Position numbers and translations under genes: made by a program. A DNA stretch of 37,707 bases from the IMG/VR virus record IMGVR_UViG_3300043395_002273, positions 1-37,707 of that record; one strand, 5' to 3'. This stretch comes from a virus. A model generated the notes under the pieces. It was not told the DNA's origin, did no database searches, and worked only from the letters and a program-made list of their open reading frames with translations. Of the stretch, positions 1,984 through 36,948 are shown piece after piece (the first letter of the stretch is position 1; each line of letters opens with the position of its first letter).

Positions 1984-2008
1984 GTAGTCATTGAATAACC
2001 TTTGCATG

Positions 2009-2312: not shown

Positions 2313-2665
2313 AACCAGTCCACCGGCAATTAAAAGAGAAGGATATAGAAAGCCTCATCCTCGATTATCTCAAAGTCATTCCCCAGTCTCGCTTCTGGAA
2401 AAATAATACAACCGGCATATTTGATCCAGCGACAGGGAAAATGCGGCTCCTTAATGGGAAACATCATGCAAAGGGTGCCGCTGATATTCTAGGCGTTATA
2501 AATGGCCGCTTCGTGGCAATCGAAGTAAAGCGCCCCAAAGGAAAAGTGAGCGATAATCAGGAAGCATTTTTAGAAAGCATTGTCAACGCTGGTGGAGTGG
2601 CATTCGTCGCCCATAGCCTTGATGACGTTATTATCAACCTACAAAAGTTTGGAGTGATCGAATGA
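2252..2665 (+). CDS. VRR-NUC domain nuclease
   Basis: The protein has 137 residues. After a basic N-terminus comes the PD-(D/E)xK-type core of the VRR-NUC family: HRQLKEKDIESLILDYLK, GAADILGVINGRFVAIEVKRP (split active site D and ExK), then Q-x-x-FL and NAGGVAFVAHSLDDV. Stand-alone phage VRR-NUC proteins are thought to cut branched or junction DNA during recombination or packaging. The start is supported by GGAG 7 nt upstream. It overlaps the next gene by ATGA, so the nuclease and the lipoprotein protease are translationally coupled. Confidence 0.88.
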   Translation: MFKLKGNRKKAHARDRNESVKPVHRQLKEKDIESLILDYLKVIPQSRFWKNNTTGIFDPATGKMRLLNGKHHAKGAADILGVINGRFVAIEVKRPKGKVSDNQEAFLESIVNAGGVAFVAHSLDDVIINLQKFGVIE

Positions 2666-3405: not shown

Positions 3406-3616
3406 ACGAATAGACGGGGAATTGGCAGATAGGGCACTCGATGGAGCAGGCTTTATCGAGTAGCAAAGCAGGATATGTTGAACCAGGAACCCGGTAACGC
3501 TTACCCCGTATCTGATAGTCCTCGCCGCAGTTCAGACAGAAGTGCAGGATAGGCCCTTTACGACGAGCTGGTCCCTCGCTCTCACCCATATAAATAAAAT
3601 CGTCCCAATTGGTCAT
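3368..3616 (-). CDS. Small zinc-ribbon protein
   Basis: This encodes 82 residues with FCLNCGEDY and CSIECPICQF, giving Cys pairs suited to one zinc. The central part GKRYRVPGSTYPALL separates the knuckles. It is transcribed leftward, downstream of the late-operon terminator, so it would be expressed by readthrough or its own promoter. Its last 38 bases are antisense to the end of the metzincin gene. The ribosome site is weak (GGTGG). I do not recognise the family. Confidence 0.6.
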   Translation of the reverse strand: MTNWDDFIYMGESEGPARRKGPILHFCLNCGEDYQIRGKRYRVPGSTYPALLLDKACSIECPICQFPVYSSSQYIPLNRAAP

Positions 3617-3625
3617 ATAGCCACC

Positions 3626-3654
3626 AAAAAAAACAGAGAGGCCGAAGCCTCTCT
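3626..3654 (-). terminator. Late-operon terminator with UUCG tetraloop
   Basis: Read leftward, AGAGAGGC, TTCG, GCCTCTCT forms a perfect 8-bp stem with the stable UUCG loop, then G and eight T (3633-3626). It lies 25 bases after the last structural-operon gene and marks the end of the long leftward transcript. Confidence 0.93.
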
Positions 3655-3679
3655 ACATCGCTTCGGACTGAGGATGGGA

Positions 3680-3850
3680 TCATTCCTCGGTCTTTACGTC
3701 CTGAGAGCCCTCTACCGCCGGAGCTTCGTATTGCTTCACGTTAGAGGCAAGCTTTGCAAAAATCGTCGCAACCTCGTTATATGGTCTTTTCGACAAAGTT
3801 TCCAGCAGTTCGTTAAGGTAATTTTCAGTTACTAAAACCCATCGTTCCAT
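3680..3850 (-). CDS. Small hypothetical protein, last gene of the late operon
   Basis: This 56-residue gene is easily missed. It starts MERWVLVTENYLNELLETLS and ends with an acidic tail QDVKTEE. A strong AAGGAG lies 8 nt before the ATG. It starts 12 bases after the fibre gene and sits directly before the terminator, so it fits the operon. No family was recognised. The helix-rich, charged content could suit a small fibre chaperone or a tail-fibre accessory protein, but this is only suggested by position. Confidence 0.75.
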   Translation of the reverse strand: MERWVLVTENYLNELLETLSKRPYNEVATIFAKLASNVKQYEAPAVEGSQDVKTEE

Positions 3851-3862
3851 TCGTCTCACTCC

Positions 3863-6358
3863 TTAAAGCAGGGCTATTGCGCCCGTATTATCAATCGTTA
3901 GTTTTTTAGTTACCGAGCCATCAGGTGACTTAAGCGTGATGCCCTTCCCTTGTCCAAGGATAATCACATCACCGCCAGTAAACTGATGACTCGTTATAGC
4001 AGCGGTACCATAGGTTGCTGTATTAGTACCCCTGCCAACAGCCGAAGCACCGATGACTATTTCGTTCGATGTTTTCAAGCCACTCGTTCCATTAGTCCCT
4101 ACGCATAGGGTTCCAAGATAGGTTGAGTTATTTACATACTGAACAGACGATGCTGCACCCGATCCCAGGAACACATTGTTAACACCATCTATTGACGATA
4201 CACCAGCGTTAGTACCGATACCTGTATTACTGCCACCCGTACAGGCTCGCAAAGCGTTTGTTCCGAAAGCTGAGTTGAATGTTACCGTTGTAACATTCTG
4301 CAAAGCTTGAACACCGAAAGCAGTATTATCGGTCCCACTCGTTAGGTTTTGGAGAGTAGATTGCCCAATTCCAGCGCATCGCGCAGCCGTCGTAGCTTTA
4401 TTTCCAGATAAGGCACCGATAAACACGCACTGGCTAAATGTAGCTCCAGCAGCAACACCAGCGGAGCGGCCAATCAAGACTCCGTCCTGTGGCGTTCCCG
4501 TACTAAATGTCGAGGGACCAATGCGGACGGTATTGCTTACCGTTCCGGTATCTATCGTCTGACCGAATATCAATCCAGTGTTTCTGACCTGAAATTCAAC
4601 GGTACCAGCATTATCCCTAACAGTAAAAGTCGGAGTCGTAGCTACGTTATCACTACCGCTTACGACTAGCTGTGCCGCTGCGTTATCCCATGTGAAGTTA
4701 GCCGAGGCTCCAAACGCTCCGCTATTGTTAAATTGTACCTGTGTATTGCTTCCAGCTACGCTAGCGCCACCCGCTACTGTTTGCCACGTTCCATCAGCTC
4801 TAAGATACTTACCCTGATCGCCAGCTAACGACACAGGAACGCCACCAGTAGTACCGCCAGCGCCAGCACTGGCTGGAGTAAATACCGGAATATCTGTAAC
4901 AGCGAGTGTCGTACCAGCCGTCACAAGACCTTTCGCATCGTAGGTTATTTTGGTTGCTGTTCCAGCCGATATAGCTGCATTTGAATCTACCTTTGCATCG
5001 AGTGCAGTTTGCGTTGCTGATGATATCGGCTTATTAGCATCTGAAGTGTTATCGACGTTTGCGAGCCCAAGGTCTGACTTAGTCAGAGTCACATCACCAG
5101 TTTGGCCGTTGACCGAGTTTACCCCGCCTGCTGCTATAGATTGCCATGTTCCATCGGCTCGTAAAAACTTCAACTGATCACCAGCGGACGATAATGGAAC
5201 ACCGCCACGAGTTCCACCAGATCCAGCCGTAGCTCCCGTGAATGATGGAATGTCTGGGCCTGTAAGTGGAGAAGCGCCAGTGATTAGACCTTTCAGATCG
5301 TAAGTCACCTTGGTCGATGTCCCAGGCGTTATGTTCGCATTCTTGTCAAGCTTGGCATTTAAAGCTGTTTGAGTTGCATTTGATACCGGCTTATTTGCAT
5401 CCGAAGTGTTATCGACATTTGCAAGACCAACGTCCGTTTTCGTTAGGACAACAACACCAGTCTGGCCATTAACCGAAGTTACAGGCGCAGCAGGTGTCGA
5501 TGCCCAGGTTCCATCAGAGCGCAAAAATAAAGTTGTCTGACCGGATGATGGTGGCGGCACAGCGCCACGAGTTCCAGCAGCAACCCCAGTCGCTCCAATG
5601 AATAGAGGCAAATCCGCAGCCGCAAGAGCCGAGCCAGCCGTTACCAAACCTTTGGCATCAAATGTTATCTTAGGAAACGTCCCACCAGTAATAGCTGCGT
5701 TTTTATCTAGTTTAGCATCCAAAGCTGTCTGCGTTGCAGTCGATATGGGCTTGTTGGCATCCGATGTATTGTTTACGTTGTTCAGCCCAATATCATTTTT
5801 CGTTAAAACCACGACACCAGTGTAACCGTTGACCGAATCAACAGCACCACCACCGCCACCAGTCACAGCCCAAACACCATCACCACGCAGGAACTTTCCT
5901 TGATCACCCATAGCCGGAGCAGGAACAGCACCAGGACCGCCATCAACTGTAGCACTCGCTGGAGCAAATATCGGCAAGTCCGATGGAGCTAGGTTAGCAC
6001 CAAAAACAACCAGCCCTTTGCTATCGTATGTTATTTTCGTGTGCGTCTGACCAACGATTGGAGCGTTAGACGATACCTTTCCCGCAAGCGCAGTATCGAC
6101 CTCAGCCGTCGTGTATGCTCCAACTTGTGTTGCTGTGTAGTCGCCAACCTGAGCAACAATATCTCCAATACGACCAAAGACAGAACTAACCGAACCGCCT
6201 GGAACAGTGCCACCGCCAGTCGTCTCCTTCCAGTCAGCAACAGATAATGTCCCGACCGAAATGTAGGATTTTTTATTTACTGTGTCGATGTAGTGACAAC
6301 CTAGTTCAATCGGAGGAACAGCAGGTGGCACAATGTCTTTGATTAAATGTATCGTCAT
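3863..6358 (-). CDS. Tail fibre protein with repeated collar modules
   Basis: The protein has 831 residues. The N-terminus (MTIHLIKDIVPPAVPP, GCHYIDTVNKKSYISVGT) looks like a short attachment domain. Four modules of about 120 residues follow, each with the pattern VNGQTGVVVLTK, NTSDANKP, TQTALDAK, TYDAKGLVTAG and FLRADGTW. The C-terminal third has beta-roll-like repeats (NTAFGVQAL, NSAFGTNAL, NTGIGTNAG) and ends GSVTKKLTIDNTGAIALL. This is the design of a trimeric fibre that contacts the host. I chose ATG 6358 because GGAG lies at the right distance; the frame continues to a TTG at 6370 that overlaps this site. It is the distal fibre of the structural operon. Confidence 0.88.
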   Translation of the reverse strand: MTIHLIKDIVPPAVPPIELGCHYIDTVNKKSYISVGTLSVADWKETTGGGTVPGGSVSSVFGRIGDIVAQVGDYTATQVGAYTTAEVDTALAGKVSSNAPIVGQTHTKITYDSKGLVVFGANLAPSDLPIFAPASATVDGGPGAVPAPAMGDQGKFLRGDGVWAVTGGGGGAVDSVNGYTGVVVLTKNDIGLNNVNNTSDANKPISTATQTALDAKLDKNAAITGGTFPKITFDAKGLVTAGSALAAADLPLFIGATGVAAGTRGAVPPPSSGQTTLFLRSDGTWASTPAAPVTSVNGQTGVVVLTKTDVGLANVDNTSDANKPVSNATQTALNAKLDKNANITPGTSTKVTYDLKGLITGASPLTGPDIPSFTGATAGSGGTRGGVPLSSAGDQLKFLRADGTWQSIAAGGVNSVNGQTGDVTLTKSDLGLANVDNTSDANKPISSATQTALDAKVDSNAAISAGTATKITYDAKGLVTAGTTLAVTDIPVFTPASAGAGGTTGGVPVSLAGDQGKYLRADGTWQTVAGGASVAGSNTQVQFNNSGAFGASANFTWDNAAAQLVVSGSDNVATTPTFTVRDNAGTVEFQVRNTGLIFGQTIDTGTVSNTVRIGPSTFSTGTPQDGVLIGRSAGVAAGATFSQCVFIGALSGNKATTAARCAGIGQSTLQNLTSGTDNTAFGVQALQNVTTVTFNSAFGTNALRACTGGSNTGIGTNAGVSSIDGVNNVFLGSGAASSVQYVNNSTYLGTLCVGTNGTSGLKTSNEIVIGASAVGRGTNTATYGTAAITSHQFTGGDVIILGQGKGITLKSPDGSVTKKLTIDNTGAIALL
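4750..6190 (-). repeat. Four in-frame ~360-bp fibre modules
   Basis: The same segment recurs every 360 bases. For example the GCATC-(C/T)-GA(A/T)GT block is at 5038, 5398 and 5758, and the xGGCCxTTxACCGA block at 5101, 5461 and (diverged) 5821. The first protein module (high coordinates) is the most diverged. A 360-base unit is 120 codons, so recombination between units would lengthen or shorten the fibre without breaking the frame. Outer limits are approximate. Confidence 0.85.
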
Positions 6359-10035: not shown

Positions 10036-11787
10036 TCAATTTGTTATGATGACAATGTAAGTTGGAACGATGCTGAGCCTGCTAAATCCAGGCGGTGTAA
10101 CAACCTGCACTAGCGGACCACCTGTGGCCTCAATCCTCGCACCGATAACAATGGCTTTCACACCAGGAACTTTGTCTATTAAGCCGATCAGTTTATGGCA
10201 GTAGAGCGGTTCGCCAACTTGTAGAGCATTCACATAGGCTACAACATCAGCTTGTATCCTAGCCTCAGCTTCCGCTAATGGTGGGTAAAGCAAGGGATCT
10301 ATAGTCAAGGTCATTTCAACACGGATAGGCGTATCTTTGAGCTTGCTAAACGACAAAGTCGCAGCCGTTCCATTGACATCAATTATATTTCCGGTCCGCT
10401 TATCAATTGGCAAAGCCGTGGAAACAACCTGGACTCCAGCAGGATGCAGGTCATATATTTTCTGCGCTACTTCGTTATCGGTCCCACCCTCAACGTAAAC
10501 TTCCATCGAGTGTGGTGGTCTGCCTGCTGAGTCAGCTAAGCTCAAAGGGTTATCGACGATAGCAACATAAGTAACACCGAGGACGGATTTCACACCGTCC
10601 CTGATTCCTGTGATAGTTGCACCGCCTGGATTTTGTAATTCATCCGTTAGCCGTTGACGATACGCTGCATCGGTTTCTCGTTCTTTCGATGAGCGACCAG
10701 CTAGCAGGTTGGTCACTTCGCTAACACCAAAAACACTCGATACGATTTCCGAAACGCTATGAGTTGGGAAAGCAAAGTTCTCGAAAGTTGTTCCAAGGGC
10801 CTCAACATCAGTAGCGACCGAATAGTTTACAGTTAACACCGTAGGCGTTGGACCAGCGTACATGTTATTTTCGAGCAGCCTCATATACCAACGCTGCGTT
10901 GCTATCGCTGGATTAAATCTAATCCAAACCGCCCCGTTTAAAGAGAATTGACCATCGACCGTTATCTGGCTAGCCGTTAGCATGGGAAGTGATGCTTGCG
11001 CCTTTGCTCTGACATTTTCATTTGCTGTTTGATCAAAAATGATAAGACCAAGGGCAGTAGAGGCATCAGCATATTCATAGGTATTCGGAGTTGGAACGGC
11101 TGTTATGGTATGCGTTCCATCGAAGTAACCGCCAGTTGTATAGGTCTGGACTACTGCATCACCGATCTTATATGGGTGATCGCCAACAGTTTGAATTGTT
11201 GCTTTAGTACCATTCCTTACCCCTGAATATAGCCAGCGCCTCGGCTTGGATGCTGCAACAATCGCGTCAATTATCTCAGTCGGAGTATATTGGTTGTAGA
11301 TTTCAAAAAAGTCAGCATCGTATCCGTCAAGCATCAGGAAAAATCTAGCTGCATCACTGGTTGGAATAAGATCAGTTCGCAGCAAAACAGTATTCTCGAC
11401 AATCGTAAGAGCGCCTTGCGTGGCAAACTCATATCCCTTGCCATTCGATACCAGACTATTTTGCGGAATTACAGAGCCAAGCTGTCCACCAAAAACAACC
11501 CTGACAAGACCATACACGCCAGACGATCTAAGCGTATTCGTTATCGAGCCTATATTATCAAGGCTGACACCCGATGCCGATACTGGAAACTGTGAGGCAT
11601 AAACGGCTTCAAGACCTTGCCATAGCGAAAATAGTTCAGTCGCAACAATATCTATGAACTGGCCTATACGCGACGATGGGTTCGTATCAATCGAAGCGCC
11701 AAGATTTGCTTTCAATGCGTTTGCAATGATTACTCTGATTTCCTCTACGGTCGCTGATACGAAGCCGCTCGTTGTTAGTCCAGCCAT
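10036..11787 (-). CDS. Baseplate wedge protein, gpJ-like
   Basis: The protein has 583 residues. The N-terminus MAGLTTSGFVSATVEEIRVII and NTNPSSRIGQFIDIVATELFSLWQ, and the middle KERETDAAYRQRLTDELQNPGGATITGI, are hallmarks of the Baseplate_J family. The C-terminus has the typical Y-x-x-x-PAGVQVV-like segment (LHPAGVQVVST) and a repeat of the family beta domain. It forms the wedge of the contractile tail baseplate. It is twice the length of P2 gpJ and closer to the Mu gp47 type. It sits between the gp25-like and gpI-like genes, the canonical order. Confidence 0.92.
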   Translation of the reverse strand: MAGLTTSGFVSATVEEIRVIIANALKANLGASIDTNPSSRIGQFIDIVATELFSLWQGLEAVYASQFPVSASGVSLDNIGSITNTLRSSGVYGLVRVVFGGQLGSVIPQNSLVSNGKGYEFATQGALTIVENTVLLRTDLIPTSDAARFFLMLDGYDADFFEIYNQYTPTEIIDAIVAASKPRRWLYSGVRNGTKATIQTVGDHPYKIGDAVVQTYTTGGYFDGTHTITAVPTPNTYEYADASTALGLIIFDQTANENVRAKAQASLPMLTASQITVDGQFSLNGAVWIRFNPAIATQRWYMRLLENNMYAGPTPTVLTVNYSVATDVEALGTTFENFAFPTHSVSEIVSSVFGVSEVTNLLAGRSSKERETDAAYRQRLTDELQNPGGATITGIRDGVKSVLGVTYVAIVDNPLSLADSAGRPPHSMEVYVEGGTDNEVAQKIYDLHPAGVQVVSTALPIDKRTGNIIDVNGTAATLSFSKLKDTPIRVEMTLTIDPLLYPPLAEAEARIQADVVAYVNALQVGEPLYCHKLIGLIDKVPGVKAIVIGARIEATGGPLVQVVTPPGFSRLSIVPTYIVIITN

Positions 11788-11791
11788 ATTT

Positions 11792-12178
11792 TTACACTCC
11801 GATTGCTATTTCAATAGTATCATTTATAAGTGTTTCGTCGGCAAGGGTCGCCTCGAAAGTTACAGTTAAAACTCTCTTTGCTATCTCAAGCTCCAGCCTA
11901 TCGACACGCTGGATGCCATCGGTGCCCAGGATCGCTGACCGGAAAATAGTATCCAGCTCTAAATCCGTCGGTCGCCTATCGGTTAAAACTCGCTGATAGT
12001 AAGGCATCCCCCATATCGGAGCCCTACGATCATCAAGGAACCACTCGCCTAGAAAGGTTTTCAAATAGGCTTGGAGCCGCGAACGCACTGTTTCCCCGTA
12101 GCTGATATCTGAAGTGAACAGCAGGTCGCCTTTCTTGAAAATGATATCGTTTGAACCATCGACAGCTATGTCAGCCAT
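11792..12178 (-). CDS. Baseplate wedge protein, gp25/gpW-like
   Basis: The protein has 128 residues. GETVRSRLQAYLKTFLGEWFLDDRRAPIWGMPYY and DLELDTIFRSAILGTDGIQRVDRLEL follow the gp25/DUF2634 lysozyme-like baseplate pattern, with the conserved region around LGEWFLD and the downstream beta strands. It is expected at the core of the wedge, contacting the sheath. The gene order spike, gp25-like, J-like matches contractile tails in general. Confidence 0.87.
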   Translation of the reverse strand: MADIAVDGSNDIIFKKGDLLFTSDISYGETVRSRLQAYLKTFLGEWFLDDRRAPIWGMPYYQRVLTDRRPTDLELDTIFRSAILGTDGIQRVDRLELEIAKRVLTVTFEATLADETLINDTIEIAIGV

Positions 12179-12190
12179 ACCTATCCCTTT

Positions 12191-12877
12191 CTATTGTGGT
12201 GTCAATAAGAGCGATTGTAGGGCCTGCTGGTAAGCCTTGATATCGGAAATCCTTGGTGTCAGCGTAGGAGTTGTGCATGGTCCACCGGATACCCCAGGCG
12301 GTGAGACAATGCCACCAGCCGTAACGAGGGCATCCAGCATAGCAAGTGCTTCTAAAAGGATTGCCACGACATCGACATTCACAGGCTTAACTGTTCCAGC
12401 CTTAAGCGCCTCTGGATCGCCAACAAACACCTTTGGTCCTGTGAGCATTGTGCCATTCTGAGGGTAAAACCGCTTGGCTGTTCTCGGTCTGTCCTTGTAT
12501 GGAAAAACGCAGGGAATGGCAAAGGCATCGGTGATATCAAACTTTCTGCTTGATAGCGGCGCTGCGCTCGTCTCGCCCTCTTTCCATTGGTCGATACATC
12601 TTTCCGAGCAAACGACAAGAACACCGTCTCCAGGCGATAGCGTGAACGTCAAACCACCACTCCTGCCAGCAGGATAAACAATAGGCACACCCTTAAGGAT
12701 TGGCATATCCATTGTTTTGCCGTTTTTTAAAAGCTTCTTTACGCTTGGCAGAACATCGACCGTTGCTCGCCCTTTTTGAAAGGCAGTTATCTTGCCAGGA
12801 AAAGACGTGTGAACATTGGCAAGGTTATAGTCAATAGCTGCCTGCAATACATCAACTAGGTTTATATCCTCGTCCAT
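12191..12877 (-). CDS. Baseplate spike protein (gpV/Gp138-like)
   Basis: The protein has 228 residues. Residues about 20-110 resemble the Gp138/gpV OB-fold (SFPGKITAFQKGRATVDVLPSV, GVPIVYPAGRSGGLTFTLSPGDGVLVVCS), which caps the baseplate hub. The C-terminal part is Gly/Pro/Thr-rich and could form the membrane-piercing needle. I chose ATG 12877, two bases after the upstream stop, with AAGG 7 nt before it; the frame is open to 12913. No iron-binding HxH tip motif was seen. Confidence 0.82.
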   Translation of the reverse strand: MDEDINLVDVLQAAIDYNLANVHTSFPGKITAFQKGRATVDVLPSVKKLLKNGKTMDMPILKGVPIVYPAGRSGGLTFTLSPGDGVLVVCSERCIDQWKEGETSAAPLSSRKFDITDAFAIPCVFPYKDRPRTAKRFYPQNGTMLTGPKVFVGDPEALKAGTVKPVNVDVVAILLEALAMLDALVTAGGIVSPPGVSGGPCTTPTLTPRISDIKAYQQALQSLLLTPQ

Positions 12878-12879
12878 TG

Positions 12880-13752
12880 CTATACCTTCCAAGCCTTTGC
12901 CTTTGTTTTCCAAACTCCCGAATGAGAATTGCCCTCATGCTCAAGGCTTTCGATTCGATAGAGCAGGTTAATCTGTTTATTTACTTTCGAGTTGATTCTA
13001 ACCCTACCGCCTATATTCAAATTGGGATTTAGAATAGTCTCGAAATCCACTCCGATGCGTGATTTTCCATCATCATCCGTTGCTAGAATAGGCTTAGGCG
13101 CTCCGATCATTCCGCTATCCTCGCCTATTTCAGCAATCGGAACAGTTGTAGTTCCTGTGTTTTTGACAATATTCAATGAACCATTATCTATGAAATAGAT
13201 ATAGCCACAATCGCTTAGATAAACATCTAAAAGCTGAAACACATCGCCTATCGAGCTTATGCCTGACTTATAGATTTTAGGCGTTAAGATCATGTACTTT
13301 GTAACCTTGACACCCTTGACGTTATTTTTTATGTGATCAGTCAATTTTTGGACGATCTGGGTCGTGCTGCTGCCTGAGCCCATTTCAAGCTTTATGAGCG
13401 TATTACCTACTGTCTTGGAAACAAGATTCGCTAGAGTGGAAATAGTCGTCAGCCGATCACCGGATGGCTCTATTGTAAAGCTTGTCCTGGTAATAGAACC
13501 AAGTATCACAATATCATTCGTATCAGCATAGCCAGCCGATAGCTGCACAATACCGCCACCCATTAGCGCATTCTGACTTTCGACCGATAGGTTATAGATA
13601 CCTATTTCCGCAACATTGGGCTCTTTCGATATCGTCTTGACTGCCTTGAAATTGAGAGCAAGCCCTATCTCATTCGTGGTTTGCTTCCAAATATATTGGT
13701 CACCACCCTCTTGCTGAAACATCAAGCTATAGGTTCTGTTAAGATATGTCAT
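12880..13752 (-). CDS. Baseplate hub protein (gpD-like)
   Basis: The protein has about 290 residues. YLNRTYSLMFQQ, IGIYNLSVESQNALMGGGIVQLSAGYAD and SVGDVFQLLDVYLSDCGYIYFIDNGSLNIV-like segments (positions about 170-205) are typical of hub proteins in Bcep781/AP22-like phages. They assemble as a trimer beneath the tube and hold the spike. The start is uncertain: ATG 13752 or GTG 13761, neither with a strong ribosome site; both overlap the upstream gene's end. It lies directly before the spike gene. Confidence 0.78.
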   Translation of the reverse strand: MTYLNRTYSLMFQQEGGDQYIWKQTTNEIGLALNFKAVKTISKEPNVAEIGIYNLSVESQNALMGGGIVQLSAGYADTNDIVILGSITRTSFTIEPSGDRLTTISTLANLVSKTVGNTLIKLEMGSGSSTTQIVQKLTDHIKNNVKGVKVTKYMILTPKIYKSGISSIGDVFQLLDVYLSDCGYIYFIDNGSLNIVKNTGTTTVPIAEIGEDSGMIGAPKPILATDDDGKSRIGVDFETILNPNLNIGGRVRINSKVNKQINLLYRIESLEHEGNSHSGVWKTKAKAWKV

Positions 13753-28381: not shown

Positions 28382-28924
28382 ATGAAACTAGAGATGGTTG
28401 AGATTGATGAGCTTGTCTTTGATCCGAATAATGCCAGACTTCACAATGAGAAAAACTTGCGAGCTATCAAAGGAAGCCTAGCTAAATTTGGTCAGCAGAA
28501 GCCGATTGTCATCAATCATAATAACGTAGTTATAGCAGGAAATGGTACTCTGCAAGCAGCTAAAGAACTTGGCTGGAGCAAGCTTTCCGTTGTACGGACT
28601 GATCTGTCTGGCTTTGAAGCCGCTGCCTTTGCATTGGCAGATAACAGGACAGCAGAGTTGGCAACATGGGACGAGGAAATTTTAGGTAAGACTTTACAGG
28701 CTTTGCGCGAGGAAAGCTTTGAGATTGAGGAAATTGGCTTTGAACCAATTGATATGGAATGGAATGCTGACCTTGATAGGATGGAAGACCTTGATAGTGA
28801 GATGACCGGTCTTGATGAGGCAACCATAAAGATCAAATGCCACAAGGATGATAAGGACGATGTGCAGAGGGCTTTGAAAAAAGCCATAAACGACCTAAAT
28901 ATTGCTGGTGTTACCATTGGATGA
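28382..28924 (+). CDS. ParB/Srx-fold protein heading the DNA modification operon
   Basis: The protein has 180 residues. MVEIDELVFDPNNARLHNEKN, SLAKFGQQKPIVINHNNVVIAGNGTLQAAKELGW and FALADNRTAELATWDEEIL show the ParB N-terminal (ParB/Srx) fold, with the G-x-G/NxxLxAAxxLGW region that binds nucleotide in ParB. In many phages this domain precedes DNA methyltransferases. Here the acidic C-terminal part (MEDLDSEMTGLDEATIKIKC) has no methyltransferase, and the next gene, two bases later, is a DNA transglycosylase. A role in target recognition or as a partner of DpdA is inferred. The ribosome site is GAGGG. Confidence 0.85.
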   Translation: MKLEMVEIDELVFDPNNARLHNEKNLRAIKGSLAKFGQQKPIVINHNNVVIAGNGTLQAAKELGWSKLSVVRTDLSGFEAAAFALADNRTAELATWDEEILGKTLQALREESFEIEEIGFEPIDMEWNADLDRMEDLDSEMTGLDEATIKIKCHKDDKDDVQRALKKAINDLNIAGVTIG

Positions 28925-28925
28925 G

Positions 28926-29753
28926 ATGAAGCTAAATCTACTTGTCGCCTACCCATACTTCACAAAGGAAGTTGCTGCGGCAATTAAACGCAGAGAGTCA
29001 GAAACCAGGTTATTCGTTGACTCTGGGGCCTTTACGGCCTGGAAAGCTGGAAAGCCGATTGCCCTGGATGACTACTGCCGTTTCCTCGAAAGCCTGCCGA
29101 TAACCCCTTGGCGTTATTTTGCTCTCGATATCGTCGGCGATCCGCATGGCTCGATGCGGAACTACGAGCTGATGCTAAAGCGAGGGTTCAAGCCTGTCCC
29201 TGTGTTCACCCGCGGCGAAGACCCATCAGTATTCGATGACTACTACAAAACGACCGACCTAGTCGGCATTGGTGGATTGGTTCAAACCCCAAAAGCGATC
29301 AACTTCGTCAAGGGTGTCATGCAGAAGACGAGGGGCAGGAATGTTCATCTGCTCGGTTTCGGTAATGCCGATGCTATTGCATGGGCAAAGCCATACTCAT
29401 TTGATAGCTCATCTTGGTCATCGGGAGTGCGGTTCGGGGCCATCCATCTTTATGATCGTAATGGCGTATGGCTTAAGAAGTTCACCTACGATGACCTTCC
29501 GCGCCTATCTGAAAACCATAAGCGCGTCCTGGCTATTCATGGCTGCGACCCATCTCAGCTTGCCGATAGAGAGCAGTGGAAAAACGCTGGAGACAATAAG
29601 CGATGGCTTCAGATCATTCCTGCCAGGGCCTGGGTCCGATATATGATCGACATTCGGCTGAAGCTTAAGAGTCATTTTTTCCTCGCTGTAACAAGTGAGC
29701 ATCAAGCTAATCACATGATCAACGCATGGGACTATTGGAGGCCAAAGAAATGA
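28926..29753 (+). CDS. dpdA: DpdA-like DNA 7-deazaguanine transglycosylase
   Basis: The protein has 275 residues. It resembles the tRNA-guanine transglycosylase fold: FVDSGAFTAW (Asp32, the counterpart of the TGT base-binding Asp in DSGGF), GIGGLVQTP, then LLGFGNADA and YSFDSSSW (Asp160, the likely nucleophile corresponding to TGT FDxxxP). Phage and bacterial DpdA proteins use this fold to replace guanine in DNA with preQ0-type bases. It overlaps queC by ATGA and sits in an operon that makes the substrate. Mapping of the two Asp residues is by motif resemblance, not by alignment. Confidence 0.88.
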   Translation: MKLNLLVAYPYFTKEVAAAIKRRESETRLFVDSGAFTAWKAGKPIALDDYCRFLESLPITPWRYFALDIVGDPHGSMRNYELMLKRGFKPVPVFTRGEDPSVFDDYYKTTDLVGIGGLVQTPKAINFVKGVMQKTRGRNVHLLGFGNADAIAWAKPYSFDSSSWSSGVRFGAIHLYDRNGVWLKKFTYDDLPRLSENHKRVLAIHGCDPSQLADREQWKNAGDNKRWLQIIPARAWVRYMIDIRLKLKSHFFLAVTSEHQANHMINAWDYWRPKK

Positions 29754-30418
29754 AGGAAGCAGTTGTTCTGTTATCTGGTGGTATGGACTCGGCAGTTGCC
29801 CTAGCTCAGATGGTAGCAAATCATGGCAGCGAGAATGTCATGGCTATATCATTTGACTATGGCAGCAAGCATAATGACCGAGAATATCGGGCTGCTGAGC
29901 ATATTTCGTCTTTCTATGACGTTCTGCATCGCCGTATCAATCTTGACATGGTTAAGGAACTCTTTGTCTCGGACCTTTTGAAGTCGAGCAAGGAGGCAAT
30001 TCCAGAGGGGCACTACACCGATGCTTCGATGAAGAGCACCGTAGTTCCATTTCGCAATGGAATCATGCTTTCGATAGCAGCAGGCTTGGCTGAGAGTTAT
30101 GAAGCTAGCCGAGTGGTGATTGCGAGTCATGCTGGTGATCATGCGATCTACCCCGATTGCCGCCCAGCCTTCACTCATGATATGGGGCAGGCGATTTATC
30201 ATGGGACAGATGGCAAAGTCTCGCTCATATCCCCATTTTTCATGATGACGAAGACCGATATTTGCAGGCTTGGGGCTCAGCTTCAAGTTCCCCTGGCCTA
30301 TACCTATTCATGCTACAATGGCCGAGAGCTTCATTGCGGGAAGTGCGGAACCTGCTTTGAACGTAAGGAAGCTTTCAGAGATAGTGGAGTAACAGACTAC
30401 ACAGAATATGAGGCTTGA
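29750..30418 (+). CDS. queC: 7-cyano-7-deazaguanine (preQ0) synthase
   Basis: The protein has 222 residues. It converts carboxy-deazaguanine to preQ0 with ATP and ammonia. The PP-loop SGGMDS is at 9-14, the QueC core STVVPFRNGIML follows at about 96, and four zinc-binding Cys lie at 188, 196, 199 and 202 (CYNGRELHCGKCGTCFERKEAF region). The length is normal for stand-alone QueC: no GAT (amidotransferase) domain is fused, unlike the Gat-QueC of phage 9g, so the product should stay a nitrile. GGAGG lies 8 nt before the ATG. Confidence 0.95.
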   Translation: MKEAVVLLSGGMDSAVALAQMVANHGSENVMAISFDYGSKHNDREYRAAEHISSFYDVLHRRINLDMVKELFVSDLLKSSKEAIPEGHYTDASMKSTVVPFRNGIMLSIAAGLAESYEASRVVIASHAGDHAIYPDCRPAFTHDMGQAIYHGTDGKVSLISPFFMMTKTDICRLGAQLQVPLAYTYSCYNGRELHCGKCGTCFERKEAFRDSGVTDYTEYEA

Positions 30419-30419
30419 G

Positions 30420-30845
30420 ATGATTGAATGCTGTCGCCGAGTCCAGTTTTGTTCTGGGCATCGGGTTTTGAATCATGAGTCAAAATGCGCAAACATGCAC
30501 GGGCATAACTATGTCGCTATGTTCCACGCTGTTAGCGAGCAGCTCGACTCCATCGGTCGGGTGATCGACTTTTCAGTTTTAAAGGAAAGGCTCGGCGGCT
30601 GGATTGATCAATATTGGGACCATACCTTTATTGTGAATCAGGAGGACACTGAGGTTATCTATGCTCTCGAAGCGGTTTCGAGAAAGAAAGATTACTTTGT
30701 GGCTGAATGGAACCCAACAGCCGAGAACATGGCGAGCTATCTATTGCATACCGTTGCACCCAGGGAGCTTTCTGGGACAGGCATCACTGTTCGCAAGGTT
30801 CAGCTCTGGGAAACCGAGAACTGCTTTGTAGAGGTTTGCTTATGA
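30420..30845 (+). CDS. queD: 6-carboxy-tetrahydropterin synthase
   Basis: The protein has 141 residues. It converts dihydroneopterin triphosphate to 6-carboxy-tetrahydropterin. FCSGHRV, then CANMHGHNYV supply Zn-binding His14, His27 and His29 and catalytic Cys23. WDHTFIV and NPTAENMASYL, with a terminal WETENCFVEV, complete the QueD pattern. I chose ATG 30420 because GAGG lies 6 nt before it; ATG 30408 in the same frame would overlap queC. It overlaps queE by ATGA. Confidence 0.95.
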   Translation: MIECCRRVQFCSGHRVLNHESKCANMHGHNYVAMFHAVSEQLDSIGRVIDFSVLKERLGGWIDQYWDHTFIVNQEDTEVIYALEAVSRKKDYFVAEWNPTAENMASYLLHTVAPRELSGTGITVRKVQLWETENCFVEVCL

Positions 30846-31483
30846 GAACCTATCTGATCAAAGAGGTATTCGGTCCAACACTTCAGGGTGAGGGATCAGC
30901 AGCAGGGACTCCTGTTTACTTCGTCCGCTTTAGTGGATGCAATCGCTGGACCGGTCGAGAGAAAGATCGAGCGGTGGCTTTCTGCACTTTCTGCGATACG
31001 GACTTCTACGGCGGAACCAAGATGACGGCTTCCGATATCCTATCGAAGCTTTCTGATATTCGGGTAAGGAGTGTGCGCACAGTTGTTATCTCAGGTGGCG
31101 AGCCAACACTTCAGCTTGACCGATCTTTGCTCGAGTCTCTTCGAGGAGCGGGGTATCTGATTCACCTGGAAACCAATGGCAGCAATGATATTCTACCTTA
31201 TGTCGATCTTTTGGCGCATGTAAGCGTATCGCCTAAACAACCGCTCGCTGAAACCAAGCTTCGATGGGCGACCGATCTCAAGCTGCTCTATCCTTGGATT
31301 CACCCAGAGATAACCGCTGCCCAATTCCAGGACTATAAAACAGCGCACCGCTTCCTCCAGCCGGTAGATAGTCCTGAGTACGCGGATAATTTGAAAGCGA
31401 CGATGGAAGCTTTGCACTCAAAGCATGAAGTGGATGGGTATCGACTATCGCTTCAGCTTCACAAAATACTAGGGGTTCAATGA
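30842..31483 (+). CDS. queE: 7-carboxy-7-deazaguanine synthase (radical SAM)
   Basis: The protein has 213 residues. FGPTLQGEG opens the protein, and Cys33-x14-Cys48-x2-Cys51 is the atypical radical SAM cluster motif known in one QueE clade. VISGGEPTLQ, HLETNGS, HVSVSPK and a final LSLQLHKILGV match QueE. It converts the QueD product to 7-carboxy-7-deazaguanine with SAM and a 4Fe-4S cluster. The start is fixed by the N-terminal motif and the ATGA overlap with queD. Confidence 0.95.
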   Translation: MRTYLIKEVFGPTLQGEGSAAGTPVYFVRFSGCNRWTGREKDRAVAFCTFCDTDFYGGTKMTASDILSKLSDIRVRSVRTVVISGGEPTLQLDRSLLESLRGAGYLIHLETNGSNDILPYVDLLAHVSVSPKQPLAETKLRWATDLKLLYPWIHPEITAAQFQDYKTAHRFLQPVDSPEYADNLKATMEALHSKHEVDGYRLSLQLHKILGVQ

Positions 31484-32049
31484 TGAGTAAGGTAGATCGC
31501 ATAGCCAAGCAAATAAAAGACATCATGCTCGAGCTTGGCATGGACTTGGACGATGACTCCTTAAAGGATACCCCACACCGTGTCGCAAAGATGTGGGTAA
31601 ATGAACTCTTTTACGGGCTCAATCCTGATAACTTCCCAAAGATGACGACGGTCGAAAATAAGTTTCGATATGATGAGATGCTGATCGAGGCAAACATAAC
31701 TCTGCACTCGACCTGCGAGCATCATCTCGTCCCAATAGTTGGGAAAGCACATATTGCTTATATACCGAAACATAAAATCCTCGGACTATCGAAGTTCAAT
31801 CGGGTGGTTGAGTATTTTGCGAAGCGTCCCCAAGTTCAGGAGCGCCTGACAAACGATATCCTGACGTGCCTCAAGAACCAACTTGATACCGATGACATTG
31901 CTGTGATCATAGATGCCGAGCACTTCTGCGTGAAGCTTAGGGGTGTGAAGCATGAGTCATGCGTGACGAGGACTTCAGCCCTCAGTGGAAAGTTTTTTGA
32001 CCCTGCCGTGAGGGCAGAGCTATTCGCTGCTATTCCATCTCTGAAATGA
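31480..32049 (+). CDS. folE: GTP cyclohydrolase I
   Basis: The protein has 189 residues (ATG 31480; 31483 is possible). STCEHHLVPIVGKAHIAYIP carries Zn ligands Cys79 and His82, GLSKFNRVVEYFAKRPQVQERLT is the substrate-binding block, and Cys150 in DAEHFCVKLRGVKHES is the third zinc ligand. The enzyme converts GTP to dihydroneopterin triphosphate, the entry to the deazaguanine pathway. It is the last gene of the operon; a hairpin follows. Confidence 0.97.
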   Translation: MMSKVDRIAKQIKDIMLELGMDLDDDSLKDTPHRVAKMWVNELFYGLNPDNFPKMTTVENKFRYDEMLIEANITLHSTCEHHLVPIVGKAHIAYIPKHKILGLSKFNRVVEYFAKRPQVQERLTNDILTCLKNQLDTDDIAVIIDAEHFCVKLRGVKHESCVTRTSALSGKFFDPAVRAELFAAIPSLK

Positions 32050-32055
32050 GGGAAA

Positions 32056-32080
32056 GGGGCATTTCTGCCCCATTGTTTTA
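32056..32080 (+). terminator. Probable terminator between convergent genes
   Basis: GGGGCA (32056-32061), loop TTTC and TGCCCC (32066-32071) form a 6-bp GC-rich stem, followed by ATTGTTTTA. It lies 7 bases after folE and touches the stop of the leftward Lys-rich gene. The T run is interrupted, so the efficiency is uncertain. Confidence 0.65.
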
Positions 32081-32638
32081 GGCTTCCGGTAGAACAGTCC
32101 TATCATGATAGTAATGCTCTTTATCTGCTCCCTCTGGCATCCAATTCACCTCGACAAAGAACCGAAGTTCGTCGATTGCATCCCAAGTCGTGAAATCCTT
32201 ATTTGTCAGATCATAGCCAAGGTCCGCGCAAGCGATCCGGTAAACATCTTTTACCGAAACCATCTCGCCATTGTGATTGATATAACAAGTTCTGATTTTA
32301 GATTTTTTCTCAAGAGCATGGGCTTTCTCGATTGCCTTAAGCACGAGCTTCTCGGTCAAACCCTCATTGAGAGCCAGATAGAGCTGCTTTAGGACGGTTT
32401 GATCTTTGCGATCAGTGAATGCTTCGGTCATCAATTCCATTACTTTCTCGCGCTTGGCTGAGTCATTCGTCAGAAGCTTTTCGAGCGATGGAACATCCTT
32501 GAGTTCCACATAAAGCTCGATATCAGCAGTCAAAGGTTTTTTCAGGCGCTCTACCTTTGGAGCCTTGGGGGCTTTCTCTGCCTTTGGTTGCTTGGAGGTC
32601 TTGGAGGCTTTAGGGGCTTTCTCTGTTTTCTTAGACAT
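32078..32638 (-). CDS. Lys/Ala/Pro-rich protein of unknown function (possible DNA-binding)
   Basis: The protein has 186 residues. The N-terminal 40 residues are a basic low-complexity tail (MSKKTEKAPKASKTSKQPKA, AEKAPKAPKVERLKK) like histone H1-type tails. A helical domain follows (IELYVELKDVPSLEKLLT, KREKVMELMTEAFTDRKD, ALNEGLTEKLVLKAIEKAHA), then a domain with RTCYINHNGEMVSVKDVYRIAC and VNWMPEGADKEHYYHD. I recognise no family. ATG 32638 has AAAGGA upstream. It has a sigma-28-like promoter 52 bases ahead and converges on the modification operon. Confidence 0.75.
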   Translation of the reverse strand: MSKKTEKAPKASKTSKQPKAEKAPKAPKVERLKKPLTADIELYVELKDVPSLEKLLTNDSAKREKVMELMTEAFTDRKDQTVLKQLYLALNEGLTEKLVLKAIEKAHALEKKSKIRTCYINHNGEMVSVKDVYRIACADLGYDLTNKDFTTWDAIDELRFFVEVNWMPEGADKEHYYHDRTVLPEA

Positions 32639-32689
32639 TTTCGTTTTCCTTTGTTTGTTTTCAGCGATCATTCGCTGCTTACAAATTCC

Positions 32690-32716
32690 TTATCGGACGA
32701 TCGCGGAAAACCTTGA
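32690..32716 (-). promoter_or_regulatory. Sigma-28 (FliA)-like promoter, copy A
   Basis: Read leftward: TCAA (32716-32713), 15-base spacer starting GGTTTTCCGCGATCG, then TCCGATAA (32697-32690). The sigma-28 consensus is TAAA-N15-GCCGATAA. The spacer and the -10 element are nearly identical to copies B and C on the other strand. The gene start lies 52 bases downstream. Confidence 0.7.
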
Positions 32717-32837
32717 GGGGAAAGGGCACATTTTTTTGGTCCATATCTACCTTATAAGGAGCAAGGAATAGGTGATTTTATTGGTATTTTTCTAACCTAG
32801 TGAAATCAGTAGGGGCGAAAATAATTGATTTCTGGCC

Positions 32838-32864
32838 TAAAGGTTTTGGGAAAAGGTCCGATAA
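32838..32864 (+). promoter_or_regulatory. Sigma-28 (FliA)-like promoter, copy B
   Basis: TAAA (32838-32841), a 15-base spacer starting GGTTTT, and TCCGATAA (32857-32864). The match to TAAA-N15-GCCGATAA has one mismatch. Downstream bases AAGGATTGGGTAGGTGGCGA are also shared with copy C, so a conserved leader follows. The gene start is 46 bases after the element. The sequence 32717-32837 before it holds nothing else I can identify. Confidence 0.75.
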
Positions 32865-32909
32865 GGATTGGGTAGGTGGCGAAAGATATCAAGTAAAAGG
32901 AGCTTTGAA

Positions 32910-33239
32910 ATGGATAAGGGAAAGATCGAGATATATCACTTAGTTGGAAAAGTCATGAATTACTGTATTGAAAATACGATCAAATGGAACATGGATATTG
33001 GCGATGAGAACGTCAAATTCACGTTTAGAAGCGATCCAATCGCCCATAAGGTCCAGGCATCTATCAATTCCCCATACATCATCAGGGACGGTTCTAGCCT
33101 GATTGTGCCTTATGGAACTTATGATGATTCCCCCAAAGTTGATATGACTCCGAGGGCACAAAAAATCCGCCATATCATGATTGCAGTTTTGCTAATGATT
33201 TCACTATGGATCTTATTTTTCATTTGGTTATGGGACTAA
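32910..33239 (+). CDS. Small protein with a C-terminal membrane anchor
   Basis: The protein has 109 residues. The soluble part (MDKGKIEIYHLVGKVMNYCI, KFTFRSDPIAHKVQASINSP) is followed by a 20-residue hydrophobic segment at the end (IMIAVLLMISLWILFFIWLW), so it is probably tail-anchored in the inner membrane. AAAGGAG lies 7 bases before ATG 32910. It is the first gene after promoter copy B. Holin or host-membrane interference are possible roles; the sequence shows only the anchor. Confidence 0.75.
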   Translation: MDKGKIEIYHLVGKVMNYCIENTIKWNMDIGDENVKFTFRSDPIAHKVQASINSPYIIRDGSSLIVPYGTYDDSPKVDMTPRAQKIRHIMIAVLLMISLWILFFIWLWD

Positions 33240-33259
33240 AAAAAAATGGTCCCTGGGCC

Positions 33260-33286
33260 TAAAGGTTTTCAGGGATCGTCCGATAA
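33260..33286 (+). promoter_or_regulatory. Sigma-28 (FliA)-like promoter, copy C
   Basis: TAAA (33260-33263), a 15-base spacer GGTTTTCAGGGATCG, and TCCGATAA (33279-33286). The block GGCCTAAAGGTTTT and the downstream AAGGATTGAGTAGGTAGCGA are shared with copy B. The lipoprotein gene starts 45 bases downstream. Confidence 0.75.
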
Positions 33287-33330: not shown

Positions 33331-34107
33331 ATGAAAGTTTCAATGATCGTCCTAGCAATCGCCCTGACAGCATGTGGAAAGGAAAGCCAAACTATCCAAA
33401 GTCAACCAGCCGCCGCAAGTCAGCCTGAAATTACAAAAGCTGATTTAGATGCCTTGCGCGAGACAATCAAGCAATCAGAGGCGGCCAATAGTGCTGAAAC
33501 TGAAAAGCTTCGTAAGGCGCTCGCTGAGGCTGAAGCTATGAACAGTGCTGAAGCTGAAAAGCTTCGTAAGGCGCTCGCTGATGCAGAGGCAGCCAATAGC
33601 CTTGAAACTGAGAAACTTAGAAAGGCTCTAGCCGATGCTGAAGCTGCCAGCAGTATAGAGGCTGAAAGCCTTCGTAAAACTCTAGCTGATATGGAAGCTT
33701 TCAATAAGGCTAAGAACGAGGAACTACAAAAGGCTTTAGAAAATAAGCTTGATGGATCTCTTGAATCAAAATGGGCTTATCAAGACAATCTTGGAAGTTT
33801 TGTTAATTACAGCGGAAACACTTATAGCATAACAATTCAAAAGACAATGATAGGACCGGACAAAAAGCCATTGCGTACAATAAGCAGAAATCACAAATAT
33901 ACCACTCCATCGACTCCGTCTGGATATGCTTATCAAACAGGAATTGCCGATATTAAAACTCAGGAATGGTCCGATATATATCAGGTTTGGTGTGATGTAA
34001 AAACTGAAAGGACTATTTTATGGTCCGATCCCGCTTTAAATCAAACATGGACAACGCTATTTTCCTTTGCGGAATGTGAAAGCATTATAGGCGCAAACCA
34101 AAAATGA
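33331..34107 (+). CDS. Coiled-coil lipoprotein (possible outer-membrane spanin)
   Basis: The protein has 258 residues. The signal MKVSMIVLAIALTACGK carries a good lipobox (LTAC). Five 18-residue repeats (AEAANSLETEKLRKALAD type) form a continuous coiled coil at about 50-139, followed by a C-terminal beta-rich domain of 115 residues (WAYQDNLGSFVNYSGNTYSI, VWCDVKTERTILW). It is expected to be an envelope lipoprotein. With the small membrane protein two features on it could form a spanin pair, but the globular C-terminus is larger than in known outer-membrane spanins. It follows promoter copy C with AAGGAG. Confidence 0.8.
   Translation: MKVSMIVLAIALTACGKESQTIQSQPAAASQPEITKADLDALRETIKQSEAANSAETEKLRKALAEAEAMNSAEAEKLRKALADAEAANSLETEKLRKALADAEAASSIEAESLRKTLADMEAFNKAKNEELQKALENKLDGSLESKWAYQDNLGSFVNYSGNTYSITIQKTMIGPDKKPLRTISRNHKYTTPSTPSGYAYQTGIADIKTQEWSDIYQVWCDVKTERTILWSDPALNQTWTTLFSFAECESIIGANQK
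33478..33747 (+). repeat. Five 54-bp tandem repeats in the lipoprotein gene
   Basis: Five units of 54 bases each encode 18 residues (E-A-x-x-S-x-E-x-E-K-L-R-K-A-L-A-D). Units 1 and 2 are the most similar in DNA (shared GAAAAGCTTCGTAAGGCGCT), and the fifth has diverged. An 18-residue unit keeps the heptad pattern only with a stutter, so length change by slippage would keep the frame. Confidence 0.9.
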
Positions 34108-34142: not shown

Positions 34143-34319
34143 ATGAAAATTCGAGTTAAGACCGCACTTCTGATTTCTGGCTTTCTGTTATCATTCTTTG
34201 TTGGTTACTTTCTCATGAGCATATGGGAATGGCATCAGCGCGAGGAAATTGCTGGAGAGCATTTGATGCGACAGCACGAACTTAAGCATCAAGCTATTCT
34301 GAACGATCATAAACGATAA
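34143..34319 (+). CDS. Small N-terminally anchored membrane protein (possible inner spanin)
   Basis: The protein has 58 residues. MKIRVKTALLISGFLLSFFV and GYFLMSIWEW form one transmembrane segment after a short basic, cytoplasmic N-terminus. The rest (HQREEIAGEHLMRQHELKHQ) is a polar helix, probably periplasmic. This layout suits an inner spanin or a small holin-like protein. I chose ATG 34143 because GGAG lies 6 nt before it; the frame continues to ATG 34131. It follows the lipoprotein by 35 bases. Confidence 0.65.
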   Translation: MKIRVKTALLISGFLLSFFVGYFLMSIWEWHQREEIAGEHLMRQHELKHQAILNDHKR

Positions 34320-34987: not shown

Positions 34988-35884
34988 TTATGAGTAACTT
35001 GGATTGCCACTTAAAAATGACTGACTATCTGTTCTGTTCGATTTTGCATTCCATATTTTCGGGCTAAGGCATCCACCCATATTGATCTCAAGGGCTAAGT
35101 CACGGATGCGGCGCTTAGTTGGTTCATCGTATGGCAGACCATCTATGCTCCAGTTGGAACTGAAAAACGTATATTTGTTTTTGTTCATGGGCTCAGTATC
35201 AATCCGTCGATCAAGCAGGCTGCGCAAAATATCCTCTTTGCCCTCTGAATACTTCTCACCACCCACCTCGTCGATATAAAGGAGTTTGGCCGTTGCAAAT
35301 TGATATTCCATTATATTTCTGTCGTGATCTTCTTTAAGGGAAAAATATCTCTTCATAAACTCTGGTAGGTGGATGAATTTAACACAGCTACCCCTCAATC
35401 TGATTTCATCAGGAAACTCATCATACATTTTTACCGCATGCATTTTCATTAGGCTTGTTTTTCCAAGCCCAGTTTGTCCAGCAAGAAAATATCCCCTAGA
35501 GCGAAAGCCTGAAATCTTAAAAGGCTGTTCAATCGACCATGACCAGATTTGCTTAAGGGTATTTGGATTCATATTCCTCAGACGACGTTTCATTTCATCT
35601 TTGTCGTTATCGTACTCGTTCAGAAAATTATCGTTGATTGAGTTATCGAGGAACTGCATACGAAAAGCTTTTAGCCGTGCTGCTTTCTTTCTTTCAATTG
35701 CTTCATCCTCGGACTCCCAGAAAGCTCTACCCCTTTTCTTTCTTTCCTCATCGGTCATTGCTTTTGCCTTGAATGCGGTTAGTACCTTATTCATATCCAA
35801 GACGCGGCCAATTTTAGGCAATACCTTCTGGAAATCGTCTCGCTTTAAGCCAAAATTATATTCGTAAAAATTTTCTTCACTCAT
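34988..35884 (-). CDS. DnaC-like AAA+ helicase loader
   Basis: The protein has 298 residues. The C-terminal AAA+ domain has Walker A GQTGLGKTS (about 157-165), Walker B KLLYIDEVGGE, sensor FFSSNWS and the arginine finger region PTKRRIRDLA. The N-terminal 120 residues are charged and helical, fit to bind the replicative helicase. No phage helicase was found, so it may load the host DnaB. ATGA overlap with the initiator-like gene supports joint expression. Confidence 0.87.
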   Translation of the reverse strand: MSEENFYEYNFGLKRDDFQKVLPKIGRVLDMNKVLTAFKAKAMTDEERKKRGRAFWESEDEAIERKKAARLKAFRMQFLDNSINDNFLNEYDNDKDEMKRRLRNMNPNTLKQIWSWSIEQPFKISGFRSRGYFLAGQTGLGKTSLMKMHAVKMYDEFPDEIRLRGSCVKFIHLPEFMKRYFSLKEDHDRNIMEYQFATAKLLYIDEVGGEKYSEGKEDILRSLLDRRIDTEPMNKNKYTFFSSNWSIDGLPYDEPTKRRIRDLALEINMGGCLSPKIWNAKSNRTDSQSFLSGNPSYS

Positions 35885-36948
35885 GGTATTTTCCTGTCTC
35901 CAAAAATAGCGTCAAACTCCTCATCACTCATCACTGGATTATTCTTGTATTCAGTTGGGGGTTGAGGCTGAACACGTTGAGCACCATGCCTTTGCCTATT
36001 ATATCCCCCATTCATTCTTTGGCTATTATTAACTTCAAAGCGCATCCAGTTATAGAAAGCTGCTGCTGGACGGGCATTCCCTTTCTCTAGCATTCCAACA
36101 ATTGCCAGGGGCCATGTATCCCGAATGAGAGTGATTGAAGCACCGAGCTTGCTGATACAGTTATCAACCGTTAAGGCTAGAGAATCGGCGTTAATCTTTA
36201 GCCCTGCCTCTTTGGCTTCCTTCATCATCTCTGCCACAGCTTGCCTATGTTCGGGATTGCCTTTTGTCGGGATGAGCTTTTCTGACTTAGGCTTCTTAAC
36301 CTTTTCCTTAGTGGTGGGAGCAGCGATAGCTGCTTGCTCTGATTCCTGCTCCCTCACTTCTTCTTGTTCCTGTTCGTCTTGTTGAGAATTCGTCTTGTTA
36401 GAAGTTCGTCTTGTTATACCCCCAGATTTCTGGAGTCCATTTTTCTGGAGTCCAGATTTCTGGAGTCCAGATTTCTGGAGTCCAGATTTCTGGAGTCCAG
36501 ATTTCTGGAGTCCAGATTTCTGGTCCTCAGATTTCTGGTCCTCAGATTTCTGGTCCTCAGATTTCTGGTCCTCAGATTTCTTAGGTTCGAGATCAGAGGT
36601 GAGATTCCATACATCTGGCGCATTGACATAGTATTGGTAAGGGACATTTCTATTTTCTCTTTCTCGGCTTATCAGATTTCGAGCTAGGCACTCTTCAATA
36701 CCGATCTTTAAAGCTGCATCATTTCCTCGAAATGCTTTATCCATAGTTCCGCGCCAAATGATGAAGTCATCAGCATGAACCAGCATAAGCGTCATAAGTC
36801 GATAGGCATGATTGGAAATTTTATGATCTAGCCAAGCTATAGCTAAATCGTTGGACACCATAAAGAATCCTTTTGTCTTTGAAATATAAGATTGATAGTT
36901 GGAACGGCGAGATCGTTTTGGGGATTGATTTTCGGGGCTATTACTCAT
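35881..36948 (-). CDS. Replication initiator-like protein with repeat linker
   Basis: The protein has 355 residues. An N-terminal winged-helix-like part (FMVSNDLAIAWLDHKISNHA, IGIEECLARNLISREREN) is followed by a long low-complexity linker with four SEDQK and six SGLQK-type units, an acidic Glu/Gln stretch, and a C-terminal helical domain (HRQAVAEMMKEAKEAGLKIN, WPLAIVGMLEKGNARPAAAFYNWMRFE). The design, plus the loader gene downstream, fits a lambda O/DnaD-like origin-binding protein. ATG 36948 lacks a clear ribosome site; internal ATG 36861 has AAAGGA at 6-7 nt and may be the real or an additional start. Confidence 0.75.
   Translation of the reverse strand: MSNSPENQSPKRSRRSNYQSYISKTKGFFMVSNDLAIAWLDHKISNHAYRLMTLMLVHADDFIIWRGTMDKAFRGNDAALKIGIEECLARNLISRERENRNVPYQYYVNAPDVWNLTSDLEPKKSEDQKSEDQKSEDQKSEDQKSGLQKSGLQKSGLQKSGLQKSGLQKNGLQKSGGITRRTSNKTNSQQDEQEQEEVREQESEQAAIAAPTTKEKVKKPKSEKLIPTKGNPEHRQAVAEMMKEAKEAGLKINADSLALTVDNCISKLGASITLIRDTWPLAIVGMLEKGNARPAAAFYNWMRFEVNNSQRMNGGYNRQRHGAQRVQPQPPTEYKNNPVMSDEEFDAIFGDRKIP
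36424..36573 (-). repeat. Ten 15-bp tandem repeats in the initiator gene
   Basis: Ten contiguous units: six AGATTTCTGGAGTCC (one with two changes, at 36439-36453) and four AGATTTCTGGTCCTC, as read on the plus strand. The near-identity shows recent expansion by slippage. Fifteen bases keep the frame, so copy-number change alters only the linker length. Confidence 0.97.

Follow-up and report, generated by a model that had tools for sequence, protein, structure and literature searches.

Three elements in the accessory gene cluster of a contractile-tail phage are, judged by their sequence, quite probably promoters of the sigma-28 (FliA/sigma-D) class, most likely read by the FliA RNA polymerase of the host and thereby switching on the cluster. 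Their match to the consensus sequence, the spacing of their boxes, their conservation and their genomic placement are matters of observation. The window, that is, the entire stretch of 37,707 nucleotides analyzed here, is an IMG/VR virus contig that carries genes for a tail sheath, a baseplate hub, a major head protein and a head maturation protease. There is no tRNA in the window, no Rfam family was found between positions 28000 and 37707, and no integrase was seen among the open reading frames and matches examined, a dedicated search for such a gene not having been made.

The three elements and the genes behind them

All three elements conform exactly to the pattern T(A/C)AAGGTTTT-N9-TCCGATAA, which occurs exactly three times in the 37.7-kb window and not once in 100 dinucleotide shuffles. 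P1 (TCAAGGTTTTCCGCGATCGTCCGATAA) is located on the minus strand at positions 32690 to 32716, upstream of gene 1; P2 (TAAAGGTTTTGGGAAAAGGTCCGATAA) and P3 (TAAAGGTTTTCAGGGATCGTCCGATAA) are located on the plus strand at positions 32838 to 32864 and 33260 to 33286, upstream of gene 2 and gene 3, respectively. These are precisely the positions given in the original prediction. No fourth copy of the longer form was found in the window when up to three mismatches were allowed. A sigma-28-weighted scan of the whole window, which had been recommended along with the prediction, returned P1, P2 and P3 only, with an average of 0.00 matches in 40 shuffles. The CCGATAA core alone is near-ordinary in the window (11 copies versus 4.5 expected); what lies beyond chance is its combination with TMAAG at a fixed spacing, not the short core itself.

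Gene 1 (32078 to 32638, minus strand) encodes a Lys-rich protein of 186 amino acids with a Lys/Ala/Pro-rich N-terminal tail and a conserved C-terminal region, whose orthologue in the related phage L011 is 47% identical. The protein has no Pfam or PHROG match; its structure model is of low confidence (pLDDT 57), and a fold search ended without a significant match. Translation most likely begins at the ATG at position 32638 and not at the start of the longest open reading frame at position 32671, because the latter is only 18 bases away from the -10 box and the L011 protein starts at the same residue (MTKKTEKK). Gene 2 (32910 to 33239, plus strand) is oriented divergently from gene 1 (ATG codons at 32910 on the plus strand and 32638 on the minus strand, respectively) and encodes a tail-anchored protein of 109 amino acids with a C-terminal transmembrane segment and a 48% identical orthologue in the related phage G007. 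Further downstream, gene 3 (33331 to 34107, plus strand) encodes a lipoprotein of 258 amino acids with the lipobox LTAC, whose homologues in L011, G004 and L297 are 29-33% identical. The lipoprotein contains coiled-coil-like units of 18 amino acids that are encoded by 54-nt tandem repeats (33476-33745), and these are missing or replaced in the aligned relatives, in L011 by DPAPAS repeats. Gene 4 (34143 to 34319, plus strand; 58 amino acids) encodes a single-pass membrane protein with 45-54% identical homologues; it closely trails gene 3 and is probably co-transcribed with it. In L297, the homologue of gene 4 has a sigma-28-type promoter of its own, at position 10491 of that contig.

The distance between the end of CCGATAA and the ATG start codon amounts to 51 bases for gene 1, 45 bases for gene 2 and 44 bases for gene 3; the predicted range of 45 to 52 bases upstream of the starts is thus correct for the first two genes, while the third falls just below it. 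That the elements drive the Lys-rich, tail-anchored and lipoprotein genes, as had been proposed, is supported by their placement and conservation, in the absence of transcript data.

On the far side of gene 1, a terminator-like hairpin (32056 to 32071, plus strand) follows a folE-like gene and divides the cluster from a queuosine-type operon. This queuosine/7-deazaguanine-type set (28902-32049) comprises genes for a queuine tRNA-ribosyltransferase-like protein (DpdA-type), a QueD-like protein and a GTP cyclohydrolase I, all found by family search, and additionally, situated between these, QueC- and QueE-like open reading frames that were recognized by eye only. The presence of a gene set of the 7-deazaguanine type suggests that the phage DNA is modified. 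Elsewhere in the window, a lipoprotein gene (2662-3405) contains an HExxHxxG motif and weakly resembles matrixin-like metalloproteases; it is without a relative in named phages, and similar genes are present in L011 (13456-14133), G014 and L204. A gene of the replication region (35881-36948) contains an in-frame 15-nt tandem repeat (36392-36601).

Consensus match, conservation and recurrence

The sigma-28 consensus of E. coli is TAAAGTTT-n11-GCCGATAA (PMC2859248), and the window sites possess the same spacing and agree with nearly all of its core bases. At the -35 position, P1-P3 read T(A/C)AAGGTTT and most relatives T.AAG.TTT, as expected from TAAAGTTT; the gap between the two octamers is exactly 11 bases in each of the three elements; and the -10 sequence of the window, TCCGATAA, matches GCCGATAA at seven of its eight bases. 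The main departure from the consensus is the T instead of G that precedes CCGATAA. In addition, the sixth base is a G in place of T, and the second base is a C in place of A in one window copy. The perfect GCCGATAA form of the -10 box is present in the relatives L297 and G014, and G007 departs from the consensus with GACGATAA. Two other candidates for the control of the cluster were considered and rejected: sigma-70 promoters, since sigma-70-like matches between positions 28000 and 37707 are at chance level (16 versus 15.1 in shuffles), and a palindromic operator (CCTMAAGG, TCCGATAAGGA), since the palindromes are not kept between phages.

Related phages were found by terminase searches, with the exception of L297, which was found through its promoters. 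In six such environmental phages, the equivalent accessory cluster contains another 18 copies; together with those of the window, this makes 21 sites from seven phages, each phage being weighted equally in the alignment. The mean information content of these sites is 1.30 bits per position in the -35 box and 1.23 bits in the -10 box, and drops outside the boxes to 0.47 bits in the spacer, 0.27 bits in the upstream flank and 0.42 bits in the downstream flank. The boxes stay while the driven proteins diverge between phages (29-48% identity). L011/G008, whose terminase is 69% identical, has a syntenic cluster in which a promoter precedes each of three genes, namely the Lys-rich gene, a second gene unlike that of the window, and the lipoprotein gene; P1 has its equivalent before the orthologous gene in L011, and P3 has equivalents before the lipoprotein gene in L011, G004 and L297. 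In G004, promoters are located ahead of the lipoprotein gene and of that for a small membrane protein, in G007 ahead of genes for a basic protein and for one with an N-terminal anchor, and in G005 they form a divergent pair. L297, with a portal that closely resembles that of the window phage, has five sites; lipoprotein or membrane genes follow two of them, and the gene 4 homologue follows another. In G014 (terminase 44%), four sites, three of which are perfect, are found in a block of lipoprotein, secreted-protease and membrane-protein genes.

Within the window, the likeness among the copies exceeds the promoter core, as a repeat search detected repeats of 52-66 nt with 73-80% identity. A 56-nt extended promoter/leader cassette around P2 (32834 to 32889, plus strand; repeat families D3, I1 and I2) is 80% identical to its counterpart around P3 (33256 to 33311, plus strand; repeat family D3), and an inverted partner of the P2 cassette (32672-32737) contains P1. 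The three elements hence look like duplicated promoter/leader cassettes, and such duplication would account for part of their mutual likeness. One could regard them, on the strength of this cassette-like duplication inside single phages, as a small dispersed repeat or a mobile promoter-like cassette without any promoter function. We consider this very improbable, as only the -35 and -10 boxes, with their fixed spacing, are kept between phages, and nearly every site is followed by a gene that has a ribosome site, despite the divergence of these genes. Because only the boxes are kept, whereas spacers, flanks and driven proteins diverge, we favor promoters over a repeat; from the alignment, selection on sigma-factor contacts is much more likely to have produced box-only conservation than a shared repeat.

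The occurrence of this type of promoter is not restricted to the relatives of the window phage. The consensus TAAAGTTTT-N10-GCCGATAA is present in at least 120 IMG/VR stretches, at no fewer than 123 distinct sites, whereas the same boxes occur in 8 stretches with a gap that is three bases longer and in 12 stretches with a gap that is two bases shorter. Among the matches listed, a start codon with a ribosome site lies within 80 nt of 62% of the correctly spaced sites (15% at wrong spacing, 19% at random positions), and 24% of them reside inside a long open frame (85% at wrong spacing, 64% at random positions); the percentages for wrong spacing rest on 13 sites only. Eight multi-site records contain about 50 matches at no more than two mismatches, compared with a single match to the reversed pattern. 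Since each of these records was chosen for at least one exact site, independence can be claimed for the further sites only. One of the eight, G020, has 11 copies on a single strand, and several copies are likewise present in group B (G009-G013), phages of a different gene content. Host DNA may be present in some of the IMG/VR contigs. A single site shared by the isolate proviruses L199, L213 and L218 has no downstream open reading frame and was taken as a chance match.

Several of the promoter-rich records merit description in their own right. Two lipoproteins, one collagen-like and the other a subtilase, are encoded in L219 together with a trypsin-like protease (10463-13683), near eight sigma-28-type promoters. 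In L210, ten such promoters are lined up on one strand within less than 5 kb (458-5037), each preceding a small gene, and this block looks as if it were run entirely by this promoter class. A lytic transglycosylase with an SLT domain is encoded at positions 17120-18001 of L084 (G010), a phage of 122 kb that has several sigma-28-type promoters.

The original prediction of sigma-28-type promoters is thus supported by consensus and spacing, by box-only conservation in seven phages, by spacing-specific enrichment in IMG/VR and by placement before genes. It had further described the use of FliA by a phage as unusual. This remark has to be amended: the open-licence literature, to which our search was confined, yielded no paper describing sigma-28 promoters on phage genes, but many environmental phages carry promoters of this type. 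The sigma-28 promoter itself is known; what appears to be new is its recurrent use by phages on accessory and envelope genes, in some of them on a whole-looking block. This suggests that many viruses tune such genes to swimming hosts.

The sigma factor that probably reads the elements

Phages use the main sigma factor of their host or bring their own. Sigma-70 region 2 and region 4 domains (PF04542, PF04545) are absent from the window, a possibly incomplete contig, and from the records of the relatives that were examined. As neither the window nor the examined records of its relatives yielded a sigma factor, FliA of the host is the likeliest reader of P1-P3; this recognition is inferred, since neither transcript nor binding data are available and the host has not been identified. 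With an incomplete contig, a factor encoded elsewhere by the phage is not fully excluded. The elements might then be operators or promoters of a phage-encoded regulator or polymerase, and their resemblance to sigma-28 promoters would be coincidental. The likeness of the window copies over 52-66 nt could be viewed in this light, and G019, an unrelated multi-site phage, encodes a short sigma-region-4-like protein (43847-43954, minus strand). In our view, such a regulator is nevertheless improbable: no sigma-factor domain was detected in the examined records of the window family; no match to a single-subunit RNA polymerase (PF00940) was obtained, in a search whose own positive control also went undetected; only the sigma-28 boxes, and not the possible palindromes around them, are kept between phages; and unrelated phages have identical boxes and spacing.

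With FliA of the host as the preferred reader, RNA polymerase carrying the flagellar sigma factor would recognize P1-P3 and initiate a few bases downstream of CCGATAA. A separately transcribed cluster would thereby be switched on, comprising the Lys-rich, the tail-anchored and the lipoprotein gene, followed by that for the small membrane protein. FliA works chiefly in cells that are flagellated or have differentiated in some other way, so that expression would be expected in the motile state of the host, independent of the main gene programme of the phage. The lipoprotein and the membrane proteins would most plausibly change the cell envelope, for instance by excluding other phages or by adapting the host surface. 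Both the timing of expression and the envelope role are inferences.

Possible hosts and relation to known systems

Searches for the host remained without result. The terminase family has only relatives of at most 35% identity over long matches, plus one short segment of 51%, in the genome collection; DNA and protein searches of named phages yielded no close relative of the window phage; and searches of plasmids and solved structures with the protease and the transglycosylase gave no host hint.

Two suggestions, each a refinement compatible with the sigma-28 reading, might explain why phages would rely on sigma-28. The hosts could be predators resembling Bdellovibrio, whose non-growing attack phase is under FliA control, with the cluster acting until prey is found. 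In B. bacteriovorus, two thirds of the attack-phase promoters depend on FliA, among them those for surface proteins and proteases (PMC3627812; PMC12622784), and phages of the present type have genes for proteases (a subtilase, a trypsin-like one and others that are weakly matrixin-like), for lipoproteins and for a transglycosylase. We regard this suggestion as rather doubtful, given that no host link was found, that the reported Bdellovibrio FliA motif TTAAG-N16-CCGATA (PMC3627812) is not met by the window sites (TMAAG-N15-CCGATAA, with a spacer one base shorter), and that the Bdellovibrio phage phi1422, the only one examined and the intended positive control, has no strong site. The second suggestion is that the phages enter via the flagellum, such that every infected cell contains active FliA. 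Entry of this kind would explain sigma-28 promoters just as simply as a Bdellovibrio-like host, and would account for their presence in many unrelated phages; it can be entertained only tentatively, as there are no receptor data and no link between flagellotropic phages and sigma-28 promoters was found in the open-licence literature.

Taken further, diverse uncultured phages may use the flagellar sigma factor of their hosts as a regular promoter class, by which lipoproteins, membrane proteins, proteases and some blocks of small genes are expressed only while the host is motile or attacking; at its most far-reaching, this view has bacterial predators as hosts, and the genes would serve to maintain the infected attack-phase cell, or to protect it, until it finds prey. 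This is speculation on our part. If recurrent flagellar-sigma promoters of phages are real, phage expression would be tied to the motility or developmental state of the host, phages whose hosts are motile or in an attack phase would become recognizable by a sequence signature, and the state-dependence of infection would be directly testable.

The FliA attack-phase regulon of Bdellovibrio (PMC3627812) likewise places sigma-28-type promoters on non-flagellar genes, surface proteins and proteases among them, but it is chromosomal and has the N16 motif, and no host link to the window phage is established. With the class 3 flagellar promoters of E. coli and Salmonella, the window sites share the -35 block TAAAG.TT, the spacing, the CCGATAA -10 block and a placement ahead of start codons, here at 44-51 nt; they differ in residing on a phage genome before non-flagellar genes, and in the T for G before CCGATAA of the window copies, where L297 and G014 have GCCGATAA. 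Phage morons are accessory genes that carry a promoter and a terminator of their own, and are usually described with sigma-70 promoters. The window cluster resembles them in being small, variable and separately transcribed, with a terminator-like hairpin on one side, but its promoters are of the flagellar sigma type and not of the sigma-70 type.
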